DNA from: an uncultured Oscillospiraceae bacterium
GTDB lineage: Bacteria > Bacillota > Clostridia > Oscillospirales > Oscillospiraceae
NCBI GenBank assembly: GCA_944382965.1
Contig: CALWOA010000004.1
Span: 62,001-126,000, forward strand
Direction: 5' to 3'
Length of the DNA stretch: 64,000 nucleotides
Shown here: positions 1,762 through 61,004 of the stretch, piece after piece
Position numbering within the stretch: position 1 is the stretch's first letter
How the letters are laid out: every line of letters starts with the position of its first letter
Position numbers and translations under genes: made by a program
Notes under the pieces: model-generated
The model's database searches: none
What the model was told of the DNA's origin: nothing
Seen by the model: only the letters and a program-made list of their open reading frames with translations

Positions 1762-2136
1762 ATGGCTAGTGAAAAGATCACTGCTCTGGTTGAGCAGGTT
1801 AAGGAACTGACCGTTCTGGAGCTGTCCGAACTGGTTCACACCCTGGAAGAAGTTTTCGGCGTTTCCGCCGCTGCTGCTGCTGTTGCTGCTCCCGCTGCTA
1901 CCGCTGCTGTTGAAGTTGAAGAGAAGACCGAGTTCGACGTTATCCTGAAGAACGCCGGCGCTTCCAAGCTGGGCGTTATCAAGGTTGTCCGTGCCGCTAC
2001 CGGCCTGGGCCTGAAGGACGCTAAGGATCTGGTTGACAACTGCCCCAAGACCCTGAAGGAAGCTATCTCCAAGGAAGATGCCGAGAAGCTGGTTGCCGAG
2101 CTGAAGGAAGCTGGCGCCGAGGCCGAGATCAAGTAA
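1762..2136 (+). CDS. rplL: Large-subunit ribosomal protein L7/L12 (bL12)
   Basis: 124 residues with the classical architecture: an N-terminal dimerisation helix pair (residues 1-32), an Ala-rich flexible hinge (about 33-52), and the C-terminal factor-binding domain with KLGVIKVVR and [12 protein letters not shown]. The stalk recruits translational GTPases. AGGAGG lies 9 bases before the ATG, and a strong terminator follows. Confidence 0.98.
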
Positions 2137-2160
2137 GTTATCTCTTCCTTATACGGCTAT

Positions 2161-2189
2161 GCCGCCGCCAGAATTGGCGGCGGCTTTTT
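2161..2189 (+). terminator. Terminator of rplJL
   Basis: A 10-bp perfect stem GCCGCCGCCA/TGGCGGCGGC, GAAT loop, then five T residues. Confidence 0.93.
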
Positions 2190-2254
2190 CCATAATATGT
2201 GCGTTTCCTGCGCACGTTGAGAGGTTATGCGCTTCTACCCTGAAAGGATTTCCT

Positions 2255-3157
2255 ATGGATTTTACCACCATTGCTCCCAGCATTCCCCAGGATATCAATC
2301 AAATTATCTCCACCGCCTCATCTTATTTTCCTGAGGAAGTGCGCCAGGTGATTCGCCATGCGTCATCGTATGTACCGAATCAGCTTGACTTGCTGAGTAC
2401 AGCACTTTTCCTTCTGTATTTTACCGCCGCATCCTTGATTGTGGGTTTTTTGGGCCGTGTGATTTTGGGAAAACGCTCCAGTCTGAATCATGCGCTGTCC
2501 TCGGTAGTTGCAATTTTATTTATCTACGCCGTGACCATTGTAGTATATACGTTCCGGCCGTGGAATTTGGAGGATTTTCTGTCTCCTCTGCCTTTCGTCA
2601 CGTTTTCCGGGGATTATCTGATTATTTATCCTATTTTGGATATGGATTTTCTTCCGCTTTGCAGTCAGATTCTTTCACTGGTGATTTTGGCCTTTCTGGT
2701 CAATTCCATTGACACCTTCCTTCCCAAAGGAAATTCCTTCTTGGGATGGTATGCTTTGCGCTTTCTGTCTGTAATTTTGTCCATGGGTCTGCATTTATTG
2801 GTTACCTGGGCGTTCCGTACATACCTTCCGGGATTCCTGGTAACTTACGCGCCCACTGTGCTGCTGATTCTGCTGGCAATCATGCTTCTGTCCGGTGTTC
2901 TGAGCCTGGTTCTGGGACTGGTTATTTTTATTGCCAATCCGTTTCTGGGCGCCATGTACAGTTTCTTCTTTTCCAACATCATCGGCAAGCAAATCAGCAA
3001 AGCCGTCTTTACCAGCGCAATTCTGTGTGTAATTGCCTATTTGCTGGAGTATTTCGGATATACCATTATCAGCATCGGCGCCGCAGCGCTGATGGCTTAT
3101 GTTCCTTTGGTGATAGTCCTGCTGGTTCTCTGGTATCTGATCGGACATACTCTATAA
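2255..3157 (+). CDS. Polytopic membrane protein of unknown function
   Basis: 300 residues. I chose the ATG at 2255 because GAAAGGA lies upstream and the frame before it crosses the rplL terminator. After a soluble N-terminal segment of about 45 residues there are some seven hydrophobic stretches, the last running to the C-terminus (ending LIGHTL). I see no transporter or enzyme signature; topology alone recalls CvpA-like or similar small membrane families, but I cannot assign one. It has its own terminator. Confidence 0.75.
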   Translation: MDFTTIAPSIPQDINQIISTASSYFPEEVRQVIRHASSYVPNQLDLLSTALFLLYFTAASLIVGFLGRVILGKRSSLNHALSSVVAILFIYAVTIVVYTFRPWNLEDFLSPLPFVTFSGDYLIIYPILDMDFLPLCSQILSLVILAFLVNSIDTFLPKGNSFLGWYALRFLSVILSMGLHLLVTWAFRTYLPGFLVTYAPTVLLILLAIMLLSGVLSLVLGLVIFIANPFLGAMYSFFFSNIIGKQISKAVFTSAILCVIAYLLEYFGYTIISIGAAALMAYVPLVIVLLVLWYLIGHTL

Positions 3158-3163
3158 AGCTTT

Positions 3164-3190
3164 GCCCTCTGCTTCGGCAGAGGGCATTTT
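3164..3190 (+). terminator. Rho-independent terminator
   Basis: A 9-bp stem GCCCTCTGC/GCAGAGGGC with a TTCG tetraloop, then A and four T residues, just after the membrane protein gene. Confidence 0.88.
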
Positions 3191-3197
3191 GCTTTCG

Positions 3198-3226
3198 TTG
3201 ACACCCTTTCTCAGGCGTGGTAAAAT
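3198..3226 (+). promoter_or_regulatory. Promoter of the GH3 lipoprotein gene
   Basis: TTGACA at 3198-3203 and TAAAAT at 3221-3226 with a 17-base spacer. The start codon at 3244 is only 18 bases after the -10 box, so the 5' leader is very short (about 10 bases), with GAGGTG inside it. Confidence 0.75.
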
Positions 3227-3243
3227 ACCTTAGAGGTGACTTT

Positions 3244-4434
3244 ATGAAACGTTTTGCTTTTCTTCTTTCTTTGCTGCTGCTATGCGGCTGTGCCTCCCCT
3301 GCCCAGGAAACAGCGCAGAATATCACTTCTGCGGCATCCCCCACCGCACCTCCGACTACGATATCGACCTCTGTGCCTACGCAACCGGCACCCACCCAGC
3401 CGGAAGATCCCATCCGCCTGATGCTCAATCAGATGTCCCTGGAAGAGCGGGTCGGCCAGTTGTTTCTGGCACGATGTGACGCAAATACCGCGGTTTCGGA
3501 TTTACAGACATATCATTTGGGCGGTTTTGTTTTGTTTGCTCAGGATTTTGAAGGACAAACCTCGGATTCTCTCCGGGAAAAGCTGGATTCCTATCAATCT
3601 GCCGCAAAAATCCCTCTGTTGATTGCGGTGGATGAAGAAGGCGGCACTGTAACACGGGTCAGCAGATATTCCGCATTTCGCTCCTCTCCCTTTTTATCCC
3701 CCCGGGAGTATTACGAACAGGGTGGTATGGAGCTGGTTTTACAAGCTGAGGAGGAAAAGTGCCAGCTTTTGCACTCTCTGGGAATATCTGTCAACTTAGG
3801 ACCGGTATGTGATATGGCAGACGATCCCCAGGCGTTTATGTACCAGCGCTCTCTGGGTTCAGATATCCAAACCGTTTCGGATTTTGTCTCCGGTACTGTA
3901 CAAATCATGGGCGATAACGGAATGGGCAGCGCGCTGAAACATTTCCCTGGTTATGGCAACAATACAGACACCCATACCGGCATGGCTGTAGACAGCCGCT
4001 CTCTGGATGAGCTGACCCAGCGGGATCTGCTCCCCTTCGCCGCCGGAATCCAAGCCGGATGTGATGCCATTTTGGTCAGCCACACCATCGCAGAAACCTT
4101 TGATTCTTCCCTGCCCGCTTCTCTTTCCCCAGCTGTCCATCAATATCTGAGAGAAGAGATGGGCTTTTCCAGTGTGATTTTGACCGATGATCTGGTAATG
4201 CAAGCCATTACCGACACCTACGGAGCCGGTGAGGCCGCTGTAATGGCCGTTCTGGCTGGAAATGATCTTCTATGCTCTACAGAATATGCAACCCAGTATC
4301 AGGCGGTATTGGACGCTGTGCTGGAAGGCAGAATTGACATCGATGTCCTGAACCAAGCCGTTCGGCGTGTTCTGCAATGGAAAATTGATCTGGGATTACT
4401 TGATCCCGAAGCATGGATTCAATCCGCAAAATAA
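3244..4434 (+). CDS. Glycoside hydrolase family 3 lipoprotein (NagZ-like)
   Basis: 396 residues. A signal peptide ends in a lipobox (LLCGC, lipidated Cys16), followed by a Thr/Pro-rich linker to about residue 55, so the enzyme is probably tethered outside the membrane. The catalytic TIM barrel shows AVDEEGGTVTR, the KHFPGYG motif near residue 232 with the following TDTH, and the nucleophile segment ILTDDLVMQAI near 312-322. This is the pattern of GH3 beta-N-acetylhexosaminidases acting on GlcNAc-containing glycans or muropeptides. The substrate is inferred. The true start is 3244 (GAGGTG upstream), not the GTG inside the promoter. Confidence 0.9.
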   Translation: MKRFAFLLSLLLLCGCASPAQETAQNITSAASPTAPPTTISTSVPTQPAPTQPEDPIRLMLNQMSLEERVGQLFLARCDANTAVSDLQTYHLGGFVLFAQDFEGQTSDSLREKLDSYQSAAKIPLLIAVDEEGGTVTRVSRYSAFRSSPFLSPREYYEQGGMELVLQAEEEKCQLLHSLGISVNLGPVCDMADDPQAFMYQRSLGSDIQTVSDFVSGTVQIMGDNGMGSALKHFPGYGNNTDTHTGMAVDSRSLDELTQRDLLPFAAGIQAGCDAILVSHTIAETFDSSLPASLSPAVHQYLREEMGFSSVILTDDLVMQAITDTYGAGEAAVMAVLAGNDLLCSTEYATQYQAVLDAVLEGRIDIDVLNQAVRRVLQWKIDLGLLDPEAWIQSAK

Positions 4435-4437
4435 CCA

Positions 4438-4469
4438 ACAGCCTGCACCGATTCTTCGGTGCAGGCTGT
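4438..4469. terminator. Hairpin between convergent genes
   Basis: A 14-bp perfect stem (ACAGCCTGCACCGA and its complement) with a TTCT loop, lying between the convergent GH3 and mrp genes. No long T-run on either strand, but the position suggests a shared terminator. Confidence 0.6.
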
Positions 4470-4478
4470 CTGCATACA

Positions 4479-5303
4479 TTAGGCATTTTCAATAGCGGCA
4501 ATCACCGAGGCAACTGCGTCGGTATTCACCGTTTCCATCAGACCATTGTCATAGGCTTCCGCCACAGCAGGATCGATGGGCAGTCTGGCCAGCACAGGCA
4601 GCTGGAATTCCTGAGCAACCTGGTCCAGATGAGACTTGCCAAAGACGCTGATTTCCTTGCCGCAATCCGGGCAGCGCAGGTAGGAATAATTCTCTACAAA
4701 GCCCAGCACCGGGATGTGCATCATGTTTGCCATCTTTACAGCCTTGGCAACGATCATGGATACCAGATCCTGGGGGCTGGTGACGATCACGACGCCATCG
4801 ATGGGCAGACTCTGGAACACAGTCAAGGGTACGTCACCGGTTCCGGGAGGCATATCCACGAACATATAGTCCACATCTTCCCAAATAACATCTGTCCAGA
4901 ACTGTTTGACGGCACCTGCAATCACAGGACCGCGCCAAACCACCGGATCAGCGGGATTATCCAGCAGCAGGTTGATGGACATGACCTGGATACCGCCACG
5001 AGTCAAGGCAGGATAGAGGCCATCTTCATTGGCACCCTGGCACTCGGTAACACCGAAAGCGGTAGGTGCAGAGGGGCCGGTAATATCCGCATCCAGCACA
5101 GCCACACGCTTGCCCTGCCGGGCCATTGCCACGGCCAGCATGGAAGTAACTGTGGACTTACCCACGCCGCCCTTGCCGGACACAACAGCGATGACTTTCT
5201 TTACCTTAGACTTGGGATTCAGCTTTTCCAGCAGGCTCTCTGCCTTGCGGTCGCCGCAGGAAGAACTGCTGCAGCTGGAGCAGTTGCCATTGCAAGAACT
5301 CAT
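4479..5303 (-). CDS. mrp: Mrp/NBP35 family iron-sulfur carrier ATPase
   Basis: 274 residues; the start at 5303 is set by AAAGGAGCG and by the promoter immediately upstream. The Cys-rich N-terminus (Cys4, 8, 11, 16) resembles the ferredoxin-like extension of NBP35 proteins. The deviant Walker A motif GKGGVGKS is at 43-50, MPPGTGD follows in the middle, and a CPDC pair (Cys211, Cys214) would hold a bridging [4Fe-4S] cluster at the dimer interface. The family loads Fe-S clusters onto apo-proteins. It is a single gene with its own promoter. Confidence 0.93.
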   Translation of the reverse strand: MSSCNGNCSSCSSSSCGDRKAESLLEKLNPKSKVKKVIAVVSGKGGVGKSTVTSMLAVAMARQGKRVAVLDADITGPSAPTAFGVTECQGANEDGLYPALTRGGIQVMSINLLLDNPADPVVWRGPVIAGAVKQFWTDVIWEDVDYMFVDMPPGTGDVPLTVFQSLPIDGVVIVTSPQDLVSMIVAKAVKMANMMHIPVLGFVENYSYLRCPDCGKEISVFGKSHLDQVAQEFQLPVLARLPIDPAVAEAYDNGLMETVNTDAVASVIAAIENA

Positions 5304-5392: not shown

Positions 5393-7255
5393 TTACTCCT
5401 GAGCAGCTTCCCACTGCTCCATCAGTTCCATCAAAACCGCTTCCGCTTCTTCCTTTTCCGACAGAAGCCGGGTCAATTCCTGATAGTCGGCAGCGGCAGC
5501 TTCAATTTTGCTGTCGTAGTCTGCAATAACAGCTTCCTGCTTTTCAATTTCCCGCTCCAATTTGCGGATCAGCTTGTCCACATCTTTGGTGCCGCCTTTG
5601 GGTCGCTCTTTTTTGGGCTTGGGTGCGGCAACAGCCACAGGCTTTGCCGCAGCTTCATGCTCCAGAATGGAACGGTATTTCTGATAGCCGCAGGGGAAGT
5701 CCCGAATTTGTCCATCTTCCAGCAGCCAGATCCGTTCGGCAAACTTTTCAATAAAGTACCGGTCGTGGGAGACGAACAGCAGCACTCCCTCAAATTCCTC
5801 GATGGCAGCTTCCACCCACTCCCGGGAAGCGATATCCAGGTGGTTGGTGGGTTCGTCCAGAATCAGCAGATTGATTTTCTCGTCCATCAGCATGCACAGC
5901 CTCAAGCGGGACTGCTCACCGCCGGAAAGGTTTTTCACCTGTTTGAACACATCCTCCCCCTGGAACAGGAATGCGCCCAGCCGATCCCGGGCCATCTGGG
6001 GGGTGCAGTTCTTTTCATAGAGCATGGTATCGTACAGGCTGCGCTCCGGGTTACGGAATTTTATGATCTGGGGAAGATAGCCCCATTTTACCGTGGGACC
6101 AAACTGAATCTTTCCCTGGCAGTCCTCTTCACCCAGCAGACACTTGATAAAGGTGGATTTTCCGGTGCCGTTATCCCCAAGCAGAGCAATCCGCTCTCCG
6201 GCTTCCACATTCAGGTTCACATCCGAGAAAAGAACCCGATCGCCGAAGGACTTGCTGACGTTCTTCATCTTGAATACCACATCGCCGGAAAAGTCCTTTT
6301 CTCCAAAGGTGGCTTTCATGGTGCGCTCTTTTTTGGGTTTCTCCGTTTTCTTGATCCGCTCCATCCGGTGCTGAATGGACATGGCCCGGCGGTACAGGGT
6401 GCGGTTATTAATACCCCAGCCCTTCATCCGCTCCACGGTATAGCCCAGCTGCTTGAGCTTGGCCTGCTCCTGCTCGTACTGCTTCATCTGCAAGTCAAAG
6501 CGGGCCTGTTTTTCTTCCATGTAGAAAGAGTAGTTTCCGGAATAGAATTCCGCATGACCTTCGGCAATCTCAATCACCCGGTCCGCCACCTGGTCGATAA
6601 AATACCGGTCGTGAGAAATAGCCAGAACCGTGCCTTTGAAAGCGTTGATATATTGTTCCAGCCACTCCACACTGTTTAAGTCCAGATGGTTGGTAGGCTC
6701 GTCCAGCAATAGGATGTCCGTTTTTTCCAGCAGCAATCTTGCTAAGTTGACACGGGTCTTTTCTCCGCCGGACAGGCTGGCAAATTCCTGCACCCGCTGG
6801 GTCTGAGGAATTCCCAAGCCGTTGCAGATTTTGTCTACCTCTACGTCCATTTCATAACCGCCGCCGGATTGGAAGCGATTGGTCAGGGTATCGTATTCCC
6901 GCAGCTGTTCCTGGGTGGCACCGTTGGCCATTCCCTGCTCCAAATGCTCCATTTTTCGTTTCCAAGCCATCAGCTGGGCGTAAGCAGAGCGGAGTACGTC
7001 CTCTACGGTGTACCCATCCGGGAAGTTGGGAATCTGGGAAATCAGGCCCAGACGTTTGTTGGGGTTCACGTATACTTCGCCGTCATCATAATCCATCTGG
7101 CCTGTGAGGATGTTGAACAAAGTGGTCTTTCCGCAGCCGTTGCGGCCCAGAATGGCCACGCATTCCCCTTCCTGAATCTCAAAACTCAGGCCATCCAGAA
7201 GGTTTTCCCCGATGACGAAAAATTTTGTCAGATTTTTGACTTGAATATCTACCAT
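5393..7255 (-). CDS. ABC-F family ATP-binding protein
   Basis: 620 residues with two ABC ATPase domains and no membrane domain. Domain 1 has LGRNGCGKTT (Walker A), LSGGEKTR and LLLDEPTNHLD. Domain 2 has LLGDNGTGKST, LSGGEQSR and LILDEPTNHLD. An inter-domain linker of charged helices (about 240-320) and a C-terminal coiled coil (about 555-620, Glu/Lys rich) follow the ABC-F plan. These proteins act on the ribosome (translation factors or antibiotic protection). The linker does not let me assign a subfamily or a drug. It lies 33 bases downstream of the Toprim gene and is probably in the comEC-holA operon. Confidence 0.92.
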   Translation of the reverse strand: MVDIQVKNLTKFFVIGENLLDGLSFEIQEGECVAILGRNGCGKTTLFNILTGQMDYDDGEVYVNPNKRLGLISQIPNFPDGYTVEDVLRSAYAQLMAWKRKMEHLEQGMANGATQEQLREYDTLTNRFQSGGGYEMDVEVDKICNGLGIPQTQRVQEFASLSGGEKTRVNLARLLLEKTDILLLDEPTNHLDLNSVEWLEQYINAFKGTVLAISHDRYFIDQVADRVIEIAEGHAEFYSGNYSFYMEEKQARFDLQMKQYEQEQAKLKQLGYTVERMKGWGINNRTLYRRAMSIQHRMERIKKTEKPKKERTMKATFGEKDFSGDVVFKMKNVSKSFGDRVLFSDVNLNVEAGERIALLGDNGTGKSTFIKCLLGEEDCQGKIQFGPTVKWGYLPQIIKFRNPERSLYDTMLYEKNCTPQMARDRLGAFLFQGEDVFKQVKNLSGGEQSRLRLCMLMDEKINLLILDEPTNHLDIASREWVEAAIEEFEGVLLFVSHDRYFIEKFAERIWLLEDGQIRDFPCGYQKYRSILEHEAAAKPVAVAAPKPKKERPKGGTKDVDKLIRKLEREIEKQEAVIADYDSKIEAAAADYQELTRLLSEKEEAEAVLMELMEQWEAAQE

Positions 7256-7288
7256 GGTCTTTCTCCAATATATACTGGGGACAAAACT

Positions 7289-7873
7289 CTACAACGACTG
7301 CAGAATCTGCTTCAGTTCCTCCAGGGAATACAGCAGATTTAACGCCTGGAGCATGGCATTGGCGCTCATATGCTCCGGGAAGTTGCAGACTTTCAGTAAT
7401 TGCTTTCGTTTCTCCTGGGCGTTGGCACCGCCGGAAAGGCCCAATTCCATCAAATCCTGCTTGGTGATCTCTGCCTTGGGCGCAGAGGTTTCCTCCTCTA
7501 TCGTGGCCCCGGCCCGGCGCAGCGCCTCCAAAATGATTTCCCGGGACATTCCTTCCACACCCAGCTTTCCTTCTTTGCCGGGAGCAGATTTCCGCTTTTC
7601 CTTGCCGGGAATATCCGGGATATAGGCGTGCTTCAAAAATTTTCCAGGGATGGCGCTTTTGATGTGATTGCGAATCACAAAGCCGGCGCCGTCAGAATCG
7701 GTAAACACAATCAGTCCACGTTCCTGGGCTACCCGGCGCAGCAGCGACAGCTGCTTCTTATCTTTGAAAATACCGAATCCCGAACTTTCCAGAATGGGGG
7801 CGTCCACAATCTGGGACAGGGTATTTTTATCATAACGACCTTCTACTAAGATCGCTTCCCGAATTTTAACCAT
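7289..7873 (-). CDS. Toprim-domain protein, ribonuclease M5-like
   Basis: 194 residues. A Toprim domain fills the N-terminal half, with the catalytic Glu in VEGRYDK (about 9-15) and the acidic TDSDGAG motif (about 58-64). A DUF4093-like tail follows. This is the RNase M5 arrangement (5S rRNA maturation), although many clostridial homologues are annotated only as Toprim/DUF4093 proteins. The start overlaps the end of holA by 8 bases, indicating translational coupling, and AGGAGG is present. Confidence 0.8.
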   Translation of the reverse strand: MVKIREAILVEGRYDKNTLSQIVDAPILESSGFGIFKDKKQLSLLRRVAQERGLIVFTDSDGAGFVIRNHIKSAIPGKFLKHAYIPDIPGKEKRKSAPGKEGKLGVEGMSREIILEALRRAGATIEEETSAPKAEITKQDLMELGLSGGANAQEKRKQLLKVCNFPEHMSANAMLQALNLLYSLEELKQILQSL

Positions 7874-52745: not shown

Positions 52746-52822
52746 CCGGGCTTAGCGAAGTTTGGTATCGCGCTTGGTTTGGGACCAAGAGACCGTGGGT
52801 TCAAGTCCCGCAGCCCGGACCA
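52746..52822 (+). tRNA. tRNA-Pro (anticodon UGG)
   Basis: 77 bases. Acceptor stem CCGGGCT (52746-52752)/AGCCCGG (52812-52818), discriminator A, encoded CCA. D arm GCG/CGC. Anticodon stem CTTGG/CCAAG with loop TTTGGGA, anticodon TGG. T arm CGTGGGTTCAAGTCCCGC. A T-run hairpin follows at once. It is the only tRNA gene in the window, and a common type of insertion site for integrative elements. Confidence 0.95.
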
Positions 52823-52858: not shown

Positions 52859-52873
52859 GACATTTTGGAAAGG

Positions 52874-52891
52874 CTTTTCTTTGTTTATAGC
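52874..52891 (+). repeat. 18-bp direct repeat, left copy
   Basis: CTTTTCTTTGTTTATAGC, identical to 53636-53653. The pair brackets the HAD fragment and the DUF3892 gene. Confidence 0.85.
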
Positions 52892-52922
52892 GGTACACTT
52901 TTTGAATCTGAATTCCACATCG

Positions 52923-53150: not shown

Positions 53151-53300
53151 AGTAATTTGCACCTCACTTACGCTTTGCTCCTATGTGCATTCTTTGCCAT
53201 TCGCATACTGTTTTGTTAGTATATCACACAGAATCCTTCTTTGTAAACTCTGCATATTTTTCACTCCGCGGCAGAAACTAAGGAAAAAGGAGTGTTGAAA

Positions 53301-53594
53301 ATGGAAGAATACAATCTTGTTAAGAATACATTGGATCAGATTCCGCAAGCCGGTCCCAACGCCAAGCACATCGTCGGACTTGTGAAGGAAGGCGGCAGGA
53401 TCACCGGCTACAAGCTGTCTGATGAAACCTTCGTTTCCAAGCCGGAGGCTGTTTCCATGGCAAAGCAAGGGCAGATCGCAGGCGTCGGAATCGCCCACCG
53501 TGGGAATACGGAATATCTTAAGTCTATCCCTGACGGCAGCGAAAACAACAACATCGGGAGCCTCCCCTCTGTTTCTCCTGAAAACCAAGGATAA
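53301..53594 (+). CDS. DUF3892 domain protein
   Basis: 97 residues from the ATG at 53301 (AAGGAG 8 bases upstream). The central part HIVGLVKEGGRITGYKLSDETFVSKPEAVSMAKQGQI (in two stretches) followed by GVGIAHRGNTEYLKSIPDG is the DUF3892 pattern, a small domain of unknown function that is frequent on mobile elements and in defence-rich regions. Its own terminator follows. Confidence 0.8.
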   Translation: MEEYNLVKNTLDQIPQAGPNAKHIVGLVKEGGRITGYKLSDETFVSKPEAVSMAKQGQIAGVGIAHRGNTEYLKSIPDGSENNNIGSLPSVSPENQG

Positions 53595-53600
53595 TTGTTT

Positions 53601-53640
53601 GACCGTCAGCGGTTCACTACTCAAATGCTGACGGTCTTTT
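53601..53640 (+). terminator. Terminator of the DUF3892 gene
   Basis: A 10-bp perfect stem GACCGTCAGC/GCTGACGGTC with a 16-base loop and TTTT. Confidence 0.88.
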
Positions 53641-53653
53641 CTTTGTTTATAGC
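53636..53653 (+). repeat. 18-bp direct repeat, right copy
   Basis: CTTTTCTTTGTTTATAGC, identical to 52874-52891. It overlaps the T-run of the preceding terminator. From here to about 53820 the DNA is AT-rich with no gene. Confidence 0.85.
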
Positions 53654-53886: not shown

Positions 53887-56800
53887 ATGCGGTTATTTAC
53901 ACAGGCTGAATTTATTAGGATGTTTTCGGTATTCCCTAATGGTACCTTTGATTTCTTCTTGGGATCTGGAGCATCGGTACAAGCAGGAATTCCTACGGGA
54001 TATAGCATGACATGGGCTTTTAAGAGAGATATTTACTGCACAGAAACTGGAGTTAACCCAGGCGCAATGAAAGACTTACAGTCTGAGTATACTCAGACTG
54101 CGCTTCAAGCATATTTTGATGCACAGCAGGATACCCCTCCCAAAGGAGATCCCTTGGAGTATGCGTACTACTTCCAGAGATGTCATCCCACTAGTGCTGC
54201 CAGAGAGATTTATATTCAAAACAAAGTGCGCGGAGTCAAACCTTCTGTCGGTCATTTGTGCCTTGCTAGCTTAATAAAGACAGGCCGTGTAACACGTGTG
54301 TGGACAACAAACTTTGATGAATTGGTTGAGTCGGGCATTAAGACACTGGAGCCATCTTTTGCTTTCAAAATACATAGTAGTGCAAATCAAAAAGAGGCAG
54401 CATTTACGGCAGACTCTACCTTCCCTGCGGTTATTAAGCTGCACGGAGATTATAGATATGACCACATTTTGAATACGCCAGAGGAATTACAAGCACTAGA
54501 GTCAACAATGGGACTGCGATTTAGCGAAGGCCTGAATGGCAAAGGACTTGTGGTAATTGGCTACTCAGGAAGTGATGAGTCAATTATGTCCCAATTAGAA
54601 AGAGCGGTTGAGAATAAATCGCTTAGATATGGTCTTATTTGGATGACACGATCAACCCAACTTCCTCCTCGCGTAGAGCAGTTGATGGAACGTGCATGTC
54701 AGGTTAGCGAGATGTCTTGTGTAGTTCAGATCGATGGATTCGACGACATACTATTCCAACTGTATTCTACCCTGGAGAACAAGGAAAGAATCATTGAGGA
54801 GCTTGGAAATCCAACAAATCAAAAGTTAACGCCATTGTATTTTTCGGGTTGTCAAGCAGATAGTTTTGTGAAAACTAATGCATTTATCAGTATAACATAT
54901 CCCATGTATCGCTCTTTCGAAACAGATGTTACCTCATGGAAGCAATTACGGGCTATTACTGACAGTGCACAAGTACCTGCCGCACTTTTCTCTGGTAAAA
55001 TATACTGCTTCGAGTCCGATGAGTGCATTAGAGCAGTATTTGGAGATCATGTAAAGTCAGCAATAAAAACTGAGCATGTTTCTTCAGTCATACAAAATCG
55101 ATACGATTCAATCTATACTGGCCTGCTTTACTCGTTAATCGAAAAGAGCCTTACATCTAATTCTGCAATTAAAAAGCTTTCAAAAAATACTTACTACGAT
55201 GTCACTTGTCAAGAAGTCTTTAGGAGTTCGTATTATGTATATGATGCAATTGAAATTCAATTAGAACTGATTAACGGTAAATACTATCTGAATATACTTC
55301 CTACTGTTTATTTGACCGGGAGAACGGGTAAGGCATTACCGCTCGAGGAAAAGAAGACCATCGTCAATTCATATATGTCGAGCCTTTACAATCAAAAATA
55401 CAACGAAAAACTATCTTCCTGGAATAAAAAGCTAATATCAAAAGACCGAAAGATAGTATTCCAATATAATAATTTTGAAATTGTGTTTGACGGTATTAGC
55501 GTTAGCAGCAGCGGCAAGCAAAGAAATGGTAAATGGCCAGAACTTAAGTCACATCAATACGAGGAACCGTCCCTTCAGTTCAGCATGGATGATAGAACAA
55601 AGTGTACAGTCAATCAATTGTATGGCTTAACCCAGTTTGGTCCATTAGATTATTCCTATGCTAAACCAGATACTATGCCACGTACACCTATCCGGTTGGC
55701 AGTAATCTGCCCCAATGAACATGTTGACTCGTTGATTGGGCATCTCAACCATTTGAAAACGGCATGTGCTGTAGTAAACAACAAGGAGGCTTTTGTTAAA
55801 CAGTATAACGGTTTTGAGAATATTTTTCGGCGTTCCTTGGATGTCCCTACGAAAGAGGACACAATCCGATGCCTAGTTTATCCGGAACAGCAGATCCTTC
55901 GAATATCACGCGATTCTTTTGTTGCCATGATAAAGCGAGGAATTGACAAATTTGCAACCAATTTGTTATCTACAGATCTAGTAGTAGTATATATCCCAAA
56001 AAGCTTTAACATGTTCAGAGAGGATGTGCCTGGCGCTGGTGACTTTAATCTGCATGATGCAGTAAAACTTTATGCGATGGACAAGGGCGTGAAGGTTCAG
56101 TTCATTGAGGAACGGTCCGTTCGAGCATCTGATCAGTGTAAGGTAATGTGGGGGTTGTCAACCAGCATATATGCTAAGGCGAACGGCATTCTGTGGCAGC
56201 CTAGTGAAGTGCAAGAGAATACCGCATTCATTGGTGTTTCTTATGCAACATCGTCGTCAGGAATTAACATTGGATGCAGCCAGTTGTTTGATTCCACCGG
56301 CGCAGGGATGCGAATGCTAATGCGTAAAATTGTTAATCCGGGTTTTATGGGGCGTAATAATCCATACATGAAAGCAGATGAGGCGCGGGCAATGCTGGGC
56401 GCATTGCGAGCACAGTATTACGCTAGCACCGCTTCAACTCCGCTGAAGAGAATAGTCATCCATAAAACAACACCGTTCACCAAAGAAGAAATCAGAGGTT
56501 TTACTCAGGCGTTTGAGGGCATCGAGGATATTGAACTGCTGCAAATCCAAGAGATGACTCCATGGCGTGCAGTCCGATTCTATACGGATTTTAATAAAGG
56601 CTCCTATCCATATCCCATAAAGAGAGGAACCGTATGTGAATTGGATTCAAATTCGTTTTTGCTATGGACAAACGGCAGTGTGATGCATGATGACATTAAT
56701 CCGCGAGGAAATTACTATAAAGGTGGAAGAGGAATTCCAACACCTTTATATGTAAAGCGTTTCTATGGAAAAGGATCAGGTGACACAATCGTAAAGGAAG

Positions 56801-56952
56801 TGCTGATGCTAACGAAGATGAACTGGAATAGCGGCGACAGTATGTATAAAACACTTCCTGTAACATTGGACTTTGCAAAAGTTTTGTCGCGCATGTCGAA
56901 GCAAACAGAGGCTCTTTATGATCGAGCTTATGACTTCCGTTTCTTTATGTAA
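53887..56952 (+). CDS. Single-chain SIR2-APAZ-prokaryotic Argonaute (short pAgo defence protein)
   Basis: 1021 residues. The N-terminal SIR2 domain (about 15-295) shows the NAD-binding GSGAS (26-30) and GIPTG, TTNFDELVE with the candidate catalytic Asn142, KLHGDY with His186, and GYSGSDE (225-231). The middle (about 310-590) has no enzyme motif, ends in FGPLDY, and fits the APAZ region that pairs with short pAgos. The MID part (about 600-770) has HDAVK (His723, Lys727) and Gln738, in the place of the guide 5'-phosphate pocket. The PIWI part (780-1010) has IGVSYATS, RIVIHKTTPFTKEE, LLWTNG and KMNWNS, but the first catalytic Asp is Ser785, so target cleavage is not expected. In characterised SIR2-pAgo systems guide-directed target recognition activates NAD+ depletion and cell suicide. 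Here all parts are in one polypeptide. AT-rich compared with neighbours; GGGG ribosome site. Confidence 0.9.
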   Translation: MRLFTQAEFIRMFSVFPNGTFDFFLGSGASVQAGIPTGYSMTWAFKRDIYCTETGVNPGAMKDLQSEYTQTALQAYFDAQQDTPPKGDPLEYAYYFQRCHPTSAAREIYIQNKVRGVKPSVGHLCLASLIKTGRVTRVWTTNFDELVESGIKTLEPSFAFKIHSSANQKEAAFTADSTFPAVIKLHGDYRYDHILNTPEELQALESTMGLRFSEGLNGKGLVVIGYSGSDESIMSQLERAVENKSLRYGLIWMTRSTQLPPRVEQLMERACQVSEMSCVVQIDGFDDILFQLYSTLENKERIIEELGNPTNQKLTPLYFSGCQADSFVKTNAFISITYPMYRSFETDVTSWKQLRAITDSAQVPAALFSGKIYCFESDECIRAVFGDHVKSAIKTEHVSSVIQNRYDSIYTGLLYSLIEKSLTSNSAIKKLSKNTYYDVTCQEVFRSSYYVYDAIEIQLELINGKYYLNILPTVYLTGRTGKALPLEEKKTIVNSYMSSLYNQKYNEKLSSWNKKLISKDRKIVFQYNNFEIVFDGISVSSSGKQRNGKWPELKSHQYEEPSLQFSMDDRTKCTVNQLYGLTQFGPLDYSYAKPDTMPRTPIRLAVICPNEHVDSLIGHLNHLKTACAVVNNKEAFVKQYNGFENIFRRSLDVPTKEDTIRCLVYPEQQILRISRDSFVAMIKRGIDKFATNLLSTDLVVVYIPKSFNMFREDVPGAGDFNLHDAVKLYAMDKGVKVQFIEERSVRASDQCKVMWGLSTSIYAKANGILWQPSEVQENTAFIGVSYATSSSGINIGCSQLFDSTGAGMRMLMRKIVNPGFMGRNNPYMKADEARAMLGALRAQYYASTASTPLKRIVIHKTTPFTKEEIRGFTQAFEGIEDIELLQIQEMTPWRAVRFYTDFNKGSYPYPIKRGTVCELDSNSFLLWTNGSVMHDDINPRGNYYKGGRGIPTPLYVKRFYGKGSGDTIVKEVLMLTKMNWNSGDSMYKTLPVTLDFAKVLSRMSKQTEALYDRAYDFRFFM

Positions 56953-57165: not shown

Positions 57166-57201
57166 ATTATTAGGTGTGCAAAATTTTGCACACCTAATAA
57201 T
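57166..57201. terminator. Perfect 36-bp palindrome between pAgo and integrase genes
   Basis: An 18-bp arm (ATTATTAGGTGTGCAAAA) followed immediately by its exact complement, ending 2 bases before the integrase stop on the minus strand; TTCTATTTTT follows on the plus strand. It can terminate both converging transcripts. The 57-base-rich stretch from 56953 to 57165 holds no gene that I can see. Confidence 0.75.
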
Positions 57202-57202
57202 T

Positions 57203-58624
57203 CTATTTTTCTACTTTTATTCGTTCCTTCTCCGCCGCGATTTCCTGTTTCATTTCCTCGATCATGGCAGCAAGTTTTTCTTCACACTCCTCGCGGGTGT
57301 GTGCGTAGACATTTCGAGAAATCCGCTTTCCGTGGGCATCTCTGGGAGAGTATTTGCCCTCCCAGAGATGGTCATTTAACTGGTAGATGCCGCCGGTGCC
57401 GGATTTGCGGTGCTTGAACGGGGTTGGCTGGAAGTCCACCCTCTGGGCGTTGGCTCTTGCCTCCTCGGTGGGCATGGGCGTGTCGGTTTTCCCAATCTGA
57501 CAGTCAATTTTCACCGCCGCCTGCTGCTGCATCAGGTCGGTAACGTGGGAATAAATGTCCAGCGTAGTTGCCGATGATACGTGACCGATGATTGTGGACA
57601 AAGTCTTCACATCCATGCCATGCTCCAGCGCCATGGTCGCGAAAGTGTGTCTCAAATCATGAAAACGAACCACCTTACACTCCGCCCGTTTCAGCGTCTG
57701 CTGCATCCTCCGGCGCACGAAATTCTGGGTCAAAGGGGCGTCCTCCTTCGCCGGGGATGGGAATATCCAGCGGGAAGTCACGGTCTGCTGATACGCTTTC
57801 AGCACCTCCAGCAGGGCAGGCGGCAGAATCACGGTACGGATAGAGGACTTGGTTTTCAGCTCGGTGATTTGCAGCTTTCCGCCGAGATAGCACATGGATT
57901 TGTCGATCCGCAGCTCCCCGGTTCTGAAATTCAGGTCGGTCCATTGCAGCGCCAGAATCTCCCCCAGCCGCATTCCCGTGCCCAGCTCCAGCAGGAACAA
58001 TTCATAGTATCCGTCCTGCCTTGCCTGTATCAGAAACCGCTGCATTTCCTCCTGGGTCAGCACCTGCATCTCCCGGCTCTTCTTGGGCGGCAGCTTGCAG
58101 CCGATGGCAGGGTTGGTTCGGATCAGCCCCTCCTGCACCGCTTTTTCCAGTGCCGAGCGGCAGCTTGCGTGGCACACCCGCACCATGCGGTCGGAAAGTC
58201 CCGGGCCAAACTGCTCCACCCGGATCAGCCGTCCGCTGGTTTTCAGCCTGGCATAGAACTGCTGCAAATCGTTCTGGGTCAGCTTGTTCAGCGGGATCTG
58301 TCCCAGTTCCGGGATGATGTGTTTGTAGATCCGGTCGGCGTAACCCTCCTGTGTTCTGGGGCTGATTTGGGGCTTGCAGTAGGTCTCATACCAGAACGCC
58401 ATCCACTCCCCGAAGGGCATATCCTCCCGGCACTTGCGGATGGGCGGCGCGTATTCCTCCCGCAGCTTGTTCAGCTTATCCAGACATTCCGTCCGGGTTT
58501 TGCCCAGTACGCTTTTCGTTTTCGGCAGGCCGTTATCGTCGTACCCGATGACAACCCGGCCCTCCCAGCGCCCATCCTTCCGTTTTCTAAGAGTCCCGGA
58601 ACCGCTTTTTCTTTTCTTTGCCAT
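57203..58624 (-). CDS. Tyrosine recombinase (integrase) with extra C-terminal arm-binding-like domain
   Basis: 473 residues. N-terminal AP2-like arm-binding domain (8-58, GSGTLRKRKDGRWEGRV), SAM-like core-binding domain (70-175), catalytic domain with Arg219 (TGMRLGE), His322 and Arg325 (HDLRH), His348 and Tyr358 (TLDIYSH), all intact. Unusually, residues 408-460 (GTGGIYQLNDHLWEGKYSPRDAHGKR in two pieces, AHTREECEEKL) repeat the plan of the N-terminal domain. It lies 9 bases after a second integrase gene, in the same operon, and its 3' end faces the pAgo gene. Confidence 0.93.
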   Translation of the reverse strand: MAKKRKSGSGTLRKRKDGRWEGRVVIGYDDNGLPKTKSVLGKTRTECLDKLNKLREEYAPPIRKCREDMPFGEWMAFWYETYCKPQISPRTQEGYADRIYKHIIPELGQIPLNKLTQNDLQQFYARLKTSGRLIRVEQFGPGLSDRMVRVCHASCRSALEKAVQEGLIRTNPAIGCKLPPKKSREMQVLTQEEMQRFLIQARQDGYYELFLLELGTGMRLGEILALQWTDLNFRTGELRIDKSMCYLGGKLQITELKTKSSIRTVILPPALLEVLKAYQQTVTSRWIFPSPAKEDAPLTQNFVRRRMQQTLKRAECKVVRFHDLRHTFATMALEHGMDVKTLSTIIGHVSSATTLDIYSHVTDLMQQQAAVKIDCQIGKTDTPMPTEEARANAQRVDFQPTPFKHRKSGTGGIYQLNDHLWEGKYSPRDAHGKRISRNVYAHTREECEEKLAAMIEEMKQEIAAEKERIKVEK

Positions 58625-58633
58625 GGCGTTACC

Positions 58634-59785
58634 TCACATAATCTCGTCCAGGAATCCGCCCACAACCCCCGACGCTTTGCGGTGCATGTCCGTGGTCATG
58701 TGGGTGTAGGTGTCCAGCGTGAAGGATGCGTTGGTGTGTCCCAAAATCCCTGACAGGGTTTTGGCATCCACGCCGCTGTTCAGGGCATGGGTCGCGAACG
58801 TATGTCTCAAATCGTGGAAACGAATGAGGGGAAGCTCCGCGTTTTTCAGCAGGGTTTTCAGGTGCCGGTATGCGCTGGACGGATTCATGGGCAGCTCCGG
58901 CACCGTGGGATTGTGGAAAATCCACTCGCTGTAGGATTTCTTTTTCCGCTGTTTCAGGATTTCCGCTGTGCTGGGCGGCAGGAGAATGGTTCTTGCGCCG
59001 GATTCCGTTTTGGTTTCTCCCACCCGGATGCCGCCGCCCTTTCGGTTGCTCACCGAGCGGTGGATATGGAGCCTGCCGGTCTTGTCATCGAAGTCCTGCC
59101 ACTTGAGACCGCAGATTTCTCCCCGGCGCATTCCTGTGGTCAGCTCCGTGTAGAAGAAGTCAAACCACAGCGGATCCTGCTTCAGCGCTTCCATGAATTT
59201 TTCCAGCTGCTCCTCCGTCAGAATCTGCTTGGGCGCGTAATTCACCTTGGGAATGATGGTGCCCTCTGTGGGATTTTTCGGGATCAGCCGTTCCCGCACC
59301 GCCGCGTCCATGGCCTCGTGAAGCATCATGTGAACGCGGCGGATAAAGCTGTCGGACAGGGCATTCCCTTTCTCATAATGCTCGTTCACCCGCCCATTCT
59401 CCCGGAGCCAGTTGTACATTTTCTGGATGTCAGCGGTGGTGATGGAGCCGATTTTCTCGTCCCCCAGCAGGGGCTTGATGTGGTGCTCCGTTATGCTTTT
59501 ATAGCTGTTCAGGGTGCTCTCCCGGACGGTCAGGGTCATGTAATCTGCCAGCCATTTATCCAGCCACTGCCCCAGCGTCATACCGGATTCTTCCGTCAGC
59601 TCCACGTCCCGATATTCCTCCATCCGGCTGTGGAGTTTTTTCAGAAGCTCCCCCTGGGTTTTGGCAAACACCGAGCGGAAGATGGGGCTGCCGTCCGCCT
59701 TGTGTCCCACCACGATTCTGCCCTCCCAGCGTCCGTCGCTGCGCTTGCGCACCAGCCCGTCACCTGCGGGTCTTCGTTTTGCCAT
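58634..59785 (-). CDS. Tyrosine recombinase (integrase)
   Basis: 383 residues. AP2-like N-terminal domain (9-58, GDGLVRKRSDGRWEGRI), core-binding domain (68-172), catalytic residues Arg220 (TGMRRGE), His324/Arg327 (HDLRH), His350, Tyr360 (TLDTYTH). Ends at residue 383 without the extra domain of its neighbour. Both start MAK-R and share the same plan, so they are paralogues that may act together. GGGGAGGG precedes the ATG. First gene of the two-integrase operon. Confidence 0.94.
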   Translation of the reverse strand: MAKRRPAGDGLVRKRSDGRWEGRIVVGHKADGSPIFRSVFAKTQGELLKKLHSRMEEYRDVELTEESGMTLGQWLDKWLADYMTLTVRESTLNSYKSITEHHIKPLLGDEKIGSITTADIQKMYNWLRENGRVNEHYEKGNALSDSFIRRVHMMLHEAMDAAVRERLIPKNPTEGTIIPKVNYAPKQILTEEQLEKFMEALKQDPLWFDFFYTELTTGMRRGEICGLKWQDFDDKTGRLHIHRSVSNRKGGGIRVGETKTESGARTILLPPSTAEILKQRKKKSYSEWIFHNPTVPELPMNPSSAYRHLKTLLKNAELPLIRFHDLRHTFATHALNSGVDAKTLSGILGHTNASFTLDTYTHMTTDMHRKASGVVGGFLDEIM

Positions 59786-60405: not shown

Positions 60406-60804
60406 TCAAAGCGGGGCAAGCTTTTTAAGCCGTGCTATCTCGTTGGCTTTTGCCTGTTGTTCCACGAAATATTCCTTCGCTTCCTGAATGGGCCGGATGG
60501 TATACAACAGGCTCCCGTTGCGCTTGGTCCCGTCCTTCAGCGTCACCGTAGTCGGCTCCGTGTAGATGAGCCGCTTTTCCACCAGACTGTCCACATGCTT
60601 CTTCACCGTATTGCGGCTCATGCCCACGGCCTCCCCGATGGTTCGGTAGCTGGGGTAGCACTGGTAGGTTTCCCGGTTCTCGCTTTTCAGCAGGAACGAA
60701 TACACCGCCAGCTCTCCCGGCGTCAGTCCCAGCTGAAAAATTTCATTGGGCAGCGGGAAGTAGTTTCGGATGGCATCCCGGCTTGGATAGCGGCTGTACT
60801 TCAT
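60406..60804 (-). CDS. Helix-turn-helix protein of the integrative element
   Basis: 132 residues. A winged-helix region (about 24-90) includes LGLTPGELAVYSFLLKSENRETY, YPSYRTIGEAVGMSRNTVKKHV and LVEKRLIY, as in the HTH_36/replication-initiator-like regulators that accompany excisionase genes in clostridial elements. The basic C-terminus (NEIARLKKL) has no motif. The start overlaps the excisionase gene by 4 bases. Confidence 0.82.
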   Translation of the reverse strand: MKYSRYPSRDAIRNYFPLPNEIFQLGLTPGELAVYSFLLKSENRETYQCYPSYRTIGEAVGMSRNTVKKHVDSLVEKRLIYTEPTTVTLKDGTKRNGSLLYTIRPIQEAKEYFVEQQAKANEIARLKKLAPL

Positions 60805-61004
60805 TGGCCCATCCGCTCCTTTACCCAGTTTTGGAAGTCCGCCTTCGGAACCACCAGCCGGCTGCCGATCCGCAGAGCGGGGAACCCTTTTTCGTGCATC
60901 AGCTCATAGGCCGAGGAATTCGATACTCCCAGGAGCTGCGCCACCATTCTGGCATTCAGAAACAGCGGCAGTTCGTCGTAGCTTTTGTAGATAGATTCGT
61001 TCAT
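60801..61004 (-). CDS. Excisionase-family DNA-binding protein
   Basis: 67 residues with the MerR-like excisionase fold: LFLNARMVAQLLGVSNSSAYELMHEKGFPALRIGSRLVVPKADFQNWV (in consecutive stretches). Such proteins direct the integrase toward excision. GGAGGGTG precedes the ATG. Position upstream of the HTH and integrase genes, same strand, supports an integrative element module. Confidence 0.88.
   Translation of the reverse strand: MNESIYKSYDELPLFLNARMVAQLLGVSNSSAYELMHEKGFPALRIGSRLVVPKADFQNWVKERMGQ

Follow-up and report, generated by a model that had tools for sequence, protein, structure and literature searches.

In the literature on short prokaryotic Argonautes (pAgos), the studies of Zaremba 2022 and Koopal 2022 are said to be the primary works. 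Fusions between SIR2 and PIWI were noted as early as Makarova 2009 (PMC2743648), and in Ryazansky 2018, SIR2 is also present in 102 of the 106 short pAgos that have an APAZ of their own (PMC6299218). Later papers name the fusions clade S1A (PMC11156904, PMC12205087), and the single-chain and split forms have been compared (PMC10954474). Here, we describe a gene of this kind, at positions 53887-56952 of a 64,000-nucleotide stretch of contig CALWOA010000004.1 from an uncultured Oscillospiraceae bacterium (the window). A first-pass annotation had read it as a complete one-gene defence system in a gut Firmicute, stating that fused forms exist, as the papers above bear out. We conclude that the gene very probably encodes a single-chain SPARSA (short prokaryotic Argonaute with SIR2-APAZ) of clade S1A, a recognised type of defence against phages and plasmids, in which guide-directed recognition of invader DNA would trigger destruction of NAD+.

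One reading frame spanning SIR2, APAZ and MID-PIWI matches

The gene is a single uninterrupted open reading frame (ORF) that starts with ATG, encodes 1021 amino acids and contains no internal stop. All motifs quoted in the first-pass annotation are present, each exactly once: GSGAS at residues 26-30, TTNFDE at 140-145 (with N142), KLHGDY at 184-189 (with H186), FGPLDY at 584-589, HDAVK at 723-727, RIVIHKTTPFTKEE at 855-868 and LLWTNG at 925-930. The placement of one of them had to be revised, since FGPLDY does not mark the end of the middle region but lies within the MID-PIWI match, which starts at residue 558.

Profile searches, which the first-pass annotation had named as a check, come out in favour of its domain order. 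The PADLOC model PDLC02420 (Aga_SIR2-PNTD1-PNTD2) aligns from end to end, residues 1-1021 against positions 1-1010 of 1010, at E=0 and 1193 bits, and a second PADLOC pAgo model of 1030 positions scores 692 bits across residues 7-1021. Among the chains in the PDB, the pAgo of Geobacter (8in8 chain C) matches residues 558-1021 with E=2.2e-62, and its SIR2-APAZ partner (8in8 chain B) matches residues 20-410 with E=1.1e-34, such that the Geobacter sulfurreducens SPARSA aligns to the fused protein with its two chains in matching order. With a family profile as the query, the corresponding E values are 7e-70 for the SIR2-APAZ chain and 2e-95 for the pAgo chain. The SIR2 and pAgo parts are thus matched by separate chains; no listed PDB chain covers the full fused length, and no structure of a fused SPARSA was found in a literature search that had most subscription papers outside its reach. 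In Pfam, SIR2_2 alone exceeds its cut-off (residues 137-247, E 9.4e-10), the NCBIfam search gave no match above its cut-offs, and no PAZ model is among the four Pfam families listed for the protein at E up to 10.

Since the family profile aligns to the SIR2-APAZ chain only as far as profile position 440, the assignment of the remaining APAZ region draws on two further comparisons. The adjacent SIR2-APAZ and MID-PIWI genes on a plasmid of Sagittula sp. P11 align to residues 8-523 and 558-1021, respectively, and hhalign matches the middle region (residues 301-556) to the APAZ of split SIR2-APAZ proteins with a probability of 99.7% and E 6e-27. Compared with solved structures on its own, the middle region gave no useful match (best E 0.28). 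As profile and structure matches, the domain assignments lie far beyond chance, and the polypeptide combines predicted SIR2, APAZ and MID-PIWI domains. Because all three are found in order in one chain, significant APAZ and PIWI matches extend beyond residue 300, where the first-pass annotation had considered their absence fatal to its proposal.

A scan of genome_contigs with six short peptides, which reaches close relatives only, returned 40 related loci. In 23 of them the same fusion is encoded as one continuous frame of 939-1101 amino acids (the shortest, L012, being truncated by a contig edge), which aligns end to end with the window protein at 37-53% identity. An error of assembly or reading frame as the source of the fusion is therefore ruled out. 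The fused alignment excludes the other 17 loci as partial, broken or MID-PIWI-only: L011 and L027, with the gene in two frames; L036 and L037, which match in MID-PIWI only; L026, whose match begins at residue 581 downstream of a recombinase-like gene; 11 partial matches, some at contig edges and some short remnants within contigs (L023, L025, L028, L029, L032, L033, L034, L035, L038, L040, L041); and L039, a decayed copy with an internal loss, whose short frame (3438-3875) comprises residues 1-45 directly followed by 714-784. Many of the relatives are Bacillota, several of gut or rumen origin.

In a midpoint-rooted tree of MID-PIWI sequences (35 rows, the fused ones mostly collected by similarity to the window protein, and neither a published S1A reference nor a long-B pAgo among them), all 25 fused proteins fall to one side of a branch (100/99). 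Five SIR2-split pAgos, including that of Geobacter, occupy the neighbouring branch (99/96 as drawn), and a further branch (100/100) divides these two groups from five other split pAgos. The window protein thus groups with the 24 other fused rows adjoining the SIR2-split pAgos; its nearest row is 60% identical across MID-PIWI. The fused rows span Bacillota, Melainabacteria, Bacteroidota and Spirochaetota, and the grouping of a Treponema row with two Bacteroidota rows (100/100) points to horizontal spread. The tree does not establish a single origin for every fused pAgo.

Conserved and substituted residues

In the Geobacter SPARSA, hydrolysis of NAD+ requires both N142 and H186, and NADase activity is likewise abolished when F143, D144, Y226 or F287 is lost (PMC10781750). 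Within an ungapped stretch of the PDB alignment, N142 and H186 of the window protein fall exactly on their Geobacter namesakes, and its F143, D144, Y226 and F285 align with Geobacter F143, D144, Y226 and F287. All six are invariant in the 26 fused rows compared, as is D230. The pocket for the 5'-phosphate of the guide is similarly kept: Geobacter H166, K170 (printed as K70 in the text of PMC10781750, and taken here as K170) and Q181 correspond to H723, K727 and Q738, which are found in 27, 26 and 27 of 27 fused rows, respectively.

Two blocks of the PIWI part, FIGVSYA (781-787) and IHKTTPF (858-864), resemble the aligned blocks of the Geobacter pAgo. We take them to be the sites that hold the slicing residues in active Argonautes, from an alignment made up of rows other than slicing Argonautes. 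The DDE residues of the Geobacter pAgo are reported as substituted (PMC10781750); in the window protein, too, the slicing residues are predicted to be replaced, and no cleavage of the target is predicted.

Genomic setting, neighbouring genes and distribution

The fused gene has a G+C content of 41.5%, compared to 53% for the remaining window, and its G+C at third codon positions (GC3) is 0.39, compared to 0.59-0.76 in eight neighbouring genes. The gene is compositionally foreign, which suggests that it was acquired recently. Of 99 genomes of the genus and order, its own included, no other encodes the full protein, which also counts in favour of the preferred reading. On one side the gene is flanked by a DUF3892 gene that lies downstream of a tRNA-Pro gene, and on the other by the border of an element that carries two integrases (Table 1). 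Homology to related elements begins at 57224-57226 in L080, L082, L083, L086 and a copy in the same genome (L084), and at 57248-57249 in L081 and L089. The perfect palindrome between the stop codons of the Argonaute gene and the first integrase is likely a shared two-way terminator. A terminator scan gave no excess over shuffled sequences, and among RNA families only the tRNA and an L10 leader reach the gathering score.

Table 1 Coordinates of the fused gene, its domains and its surroundings in the window
Feature	Position	Strand	Basis
tRNA-Pro(tgg), edge of the variable region	52746..52822	+	tRNA/RNA-family scan
31-nt repeat, possible attachment site (putative function)	52867..52897	+	recurs at contig 129808
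DUF3892 gene, left marker of the cargo slot (likewise in relatives)	53292..53594	+	Pfam PF13031
Copy of the 18-nt core of the repeat, between DUF3892 gene and Ago gene	53636..53653	+	
Fused SIR2-APAZ-MID-PIWI gene, 1021 amino acids plus stop	53887..56952	+	frame; PADLOC PDLC02420 over full span; 23 homologues with the same fusion
Predicted SIR2 NADase domain, residues 1-300 (approximate boundary)	53887..54786	+	Pfam SIR2_2; PDB SIR2 chain; invariant required residues
SIR2 N142 codon; H186 codon	54310-54312; 54442-54444	+	within SIR2 domain
Predicted APAZ domain (equivalent of N-L1-L2), residues 301-545 (approximate boundary)	54787..55521	+	Sagittula alignment; hhalign 99.7%
Predicted MID domain, residues ~556-755 (inner boundary guessed); pocket H723, K727, Q738	55552..56151	+	8in8_C alignment
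PIWI domain, residues ~756-1021, predicted to lack slicing activity	56152..56949	+	8in8_C
Perfect 36-nt palindrome between Ago stop and integrase stop	57166..57201	.	
Tyrosine integrase 1	57203..58624	-	Pfam PF00589
Tyrosine integrase 2	58634..59785	-	Pfam PF00589
HTH_36 protein of the mobile element	60406..60804	-	
HTH_17/AlpA-like protein, probable excisionase (putative role)	60801..61004	-	

A second copy of the 31-nucleotide repeat downstream of the tRNA, at a distance of 14,941 bp (contig 129808-129838, beyond the window), differs by one mismatch, and the 18-nucleotide core of the repeat occurs at seven sites in the genome within two mismatches, compared to none for a reversed control pattern. 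The repeats may serve a family of integrative elements as attachment sites, perhaps with the elements stacked in series. The 3' end of the tRNA was considered as an attachment site and rejected: it is not repeated elsewhere in the window, and the repeat downstream was found instead. An empty chromosomal site was not found; to the right of the far repeat, the sequence is variable in its own right and has matches in 11 of 60 other genomes.

In related genomes, the position next to the integrases is filled differently. It is empty in G057, where the integrase edge follows 15 bp after the DUF3892 region; in G022 it carries an ABC-3C-type trio (CTD11, MC7 and DUF2326; L081 6718-8999), and on contig 18 of G005 it encodes a protein with a match to PDC-S30, a phage-defence candidate (L082 3564-4610). 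By its contents, the slot is a variable cargo site in the genus, partly filled with defence-like genes, and the trio and the PDC-S30 candidate support reading the fused gene as a defence gene as well. The same is supported by the surroundings of two fused homologues on IMG/VR contigs. Upstream of that on L112 lie a HaeII-type restriction enzyme with a cytosine methylase and an HhH-GPD repair-type protein (1912-4735), and that on L113 stands beside two serine recombinases and a lysis amidase. On L113 (9120-11201), a caspase-domain protein begins 38 bp downstream of the fused gene.

To look for a partner gene, we clustered ORFs of at least 80 amino acids from 32 loci (L002-L031, L094 and part of the window). 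Apart from the Argonaute itself, no cluster occurs in more than 6 of the 32, although many loci have short flanks and a rarer partner could be missed. The commonest are recombinase-like (6/32) and type I methylase-like (5/32), names read from example sequences. An accessory partner is thus ruled out as a shared feature, a one-gene system fits, as the first-pass annotation had proposed, and a further partner gene appears unneeded.

A survey of the class found a match to the class I MID-PIWI model in 4 of 391 genomes. Three of the four hold a frame of more than 1000 amino acids; they include the genome of the window itself and G435, which reads identically to L024. A match was also obtained in 2 of 14 control genomes. 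Among plasmids, 115 records match, three of them covering 80% or more of the query at a single place, and the four best are all split pairs. Four phage records match, none with 80% of the query. One unverified phage record from human faeces (L052, MT837260.1) carries at 5437-7310 a SIR2-APAZ relative with 26% identity over residues 9-512; its frame continues past the end of the record.

Proposed mechanism and comparison with known systems

The sequence itself establishes the predicted domain identity, the kept SIR2 and 5'-phosphate residues, the replaced slicing residues and the foreign-cargo setting; each mechanistic step beyond domain identification is modelled on the two-chain Geobacter system. 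By this analogy, the core of MID-PIWI and APAZ would load a 5'-phosphorylated guide RNA, held in MID, and invader DNA would pair with it along the APAZ/PIWI channel and not be cut. Pairing would shift the complex, whereupon the SIR2 domain would hydrolyse NAD+, and the infected or plasmid-receiving cell would stop growing or die after the loss of NAD+. The fusion of APAZ to MID should allow the core to assemble within one chain. Published accounts of activation differ: movement of the H186 loop has been proposed to admit water (PMC10781750), whereas target DNA is stated to induce SPARSA tetramers (PMC12205087).

Several observations weigh against this picture. The Geobacter residue R229, which contacts NAD, corresponds to S229 in the window protein, and the position is S, N or C in 26/26 fused rows, compared to R in 5/5 split rows. 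The base-specific guide contacts of the Geobacter pAgo are replaced (D164 by N721, N184 by E741, R190 by A747 and N195 by K752), as are the target contacts N82 and Y84 (A635 and V637); Y359 is kept as Y909. The slot in G052 (L080 8523-10538) holds genes without a strong defence match: the one frame searched gave a weak match to a DEDDh exonuclease (E 3e-6), and the remaining frames were only read. Similar frames lie in the slot in G030 and on a second G005 contig, where little or none of the integrase DNA is present. In addition, the homologues L011, L027, L026 and L039 are broken or truncated, and the tree tool warned of long branches meeting, among them L037, L047 and L094.

Because the base-specific contacts differ, the guide rules of Geobacter need not carry over to the window protein. 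Among 27 fused rows, the D164 position is N in 16 and D in 11, the N184 position is always E, the R190 position is never R, and the N195 position is K in 26 and R in one. Given that N184 and N195 contact the first two guide bases, the combination of a kept 5'-phosphate pocket with an invariant E741 and a near-invariant K752 at base-contact positions makes it conceivable, though somewhat short of an even chance, that the fused S1A Argonautes follow a different 5' guide rule from the Geobacter SPARSA. If so, the reported 5'-AU bias of the latter would fail, at least at the second base. Against this speaks the observation that in four split SIR2 pAgos (two of them near-identical) only the D164 position is constant, always D, and the other three contact positions vary there too.

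The substitution at position 229 also bears on what the SIR2 domain does. One could envisage that guide and target are bound but that SIR2, instead of hydrolysing bulk NAD+, acts otherwise, for example by modifying proteins or nucleotides, giving a milder block than abortive infection; an analysis confined to sequence leaves room for this. We consider it improbable, as the six residues essential for the Geobacter NADase are invariant and the SIR2 domain matches best, among PDB entries, the SPARSA chain and next KomC, which is labelled a SIR2-domain NADase. A marginally lower probability still goes to the gene being a passenger that the mobile element carries along, silent or decaying and without present function. 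Its position in a cargo slot and the broken homologues would suit a passenger, as would its rarity: among 99 genomes of the same genus and order, its own included, the full protein occurs in its own genome only, and four matches in three of the other 98 cover just the SIR2 part. Moreover, promoter-like sites number 10, no excess over a shuffle mean of 10.7, with none on the + strand upstream of the start. A passenger is, however, hard to reconcile with an intact frame of 1021 codons, end-to-end alignment with homologues at 37-53% identity and the kept required positions. That the protein is a long-B pAgo with an added SIR2 domain is very improbable, for although a single chain with an N-L1-L2-like APAZ and MID-PIWI resembles a PAZ-less long pAgo plus effector (PMC10954474), its top hits are SIR2-associated class I pAgo models in PADLOC and the chains of the Geobacter SPARSA in the PDB, and in the tree, which holds no long-B row, it clusters with the SIR2-split short pAgos.

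A single-chain SPARSA thus remains the preferred reading, and the known systems can be ordered by their likeness to it. Thoeris ThsA and other SIR2 defence proteins share the SIR2 domain (ThsA models match with E of about 1e-5 to 8e-5) but are without an Argonaute part. The PDB short pAgo chains 8ifk, 8fex and others, presumably from SPARTA, match much more weakly than those of SPARSA (E 3e-13 to 2e-15). In SPARTA and SPARDA, an inactive short pAgo with APAZ likewise switches on a killing enzyme (PMC12205087), the effector being a TIR or a nuclease instead of SIR2. Two-gene SPARSA (S1B) has SIR2-APAZ and pAgo in separate genes, unlike the one frame found here. Its Geobacter member, GsSir2/pAgo (PDB 8jkz and 8jl0, PMC10781750; 8in8 has the same pAgo chain sequence), shares SIR2-APAZ, MID-PIWI, the aligned N142/H186 dyad, the NAD pocket and the 5'-phosphate pocket; it differs in consisting of two separate proteins and in its contacts to 5'-A and U2, the four base contacts listed above.

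The closest likeness is to the S1A short pAgos (group Ia of Ryazansky 2018; PADLOC PDLC02420), which have the same domain order in one polypeptide, a similar length (1010 model positions compared to 1021 residues), a SIR2 active site and no slicing residues. Within its genome, the gene is an ordinary, well-supported predicted defence gene gained by transfer. As a compact single-gene form, it is a convenient subject for the effects of fusion on assembly, guide choice and activation. We found nothing that sets the protein apart from the S1A short pAgos, and because such fusions are already in print, it is a new example of that named clade and not a new kind of system.

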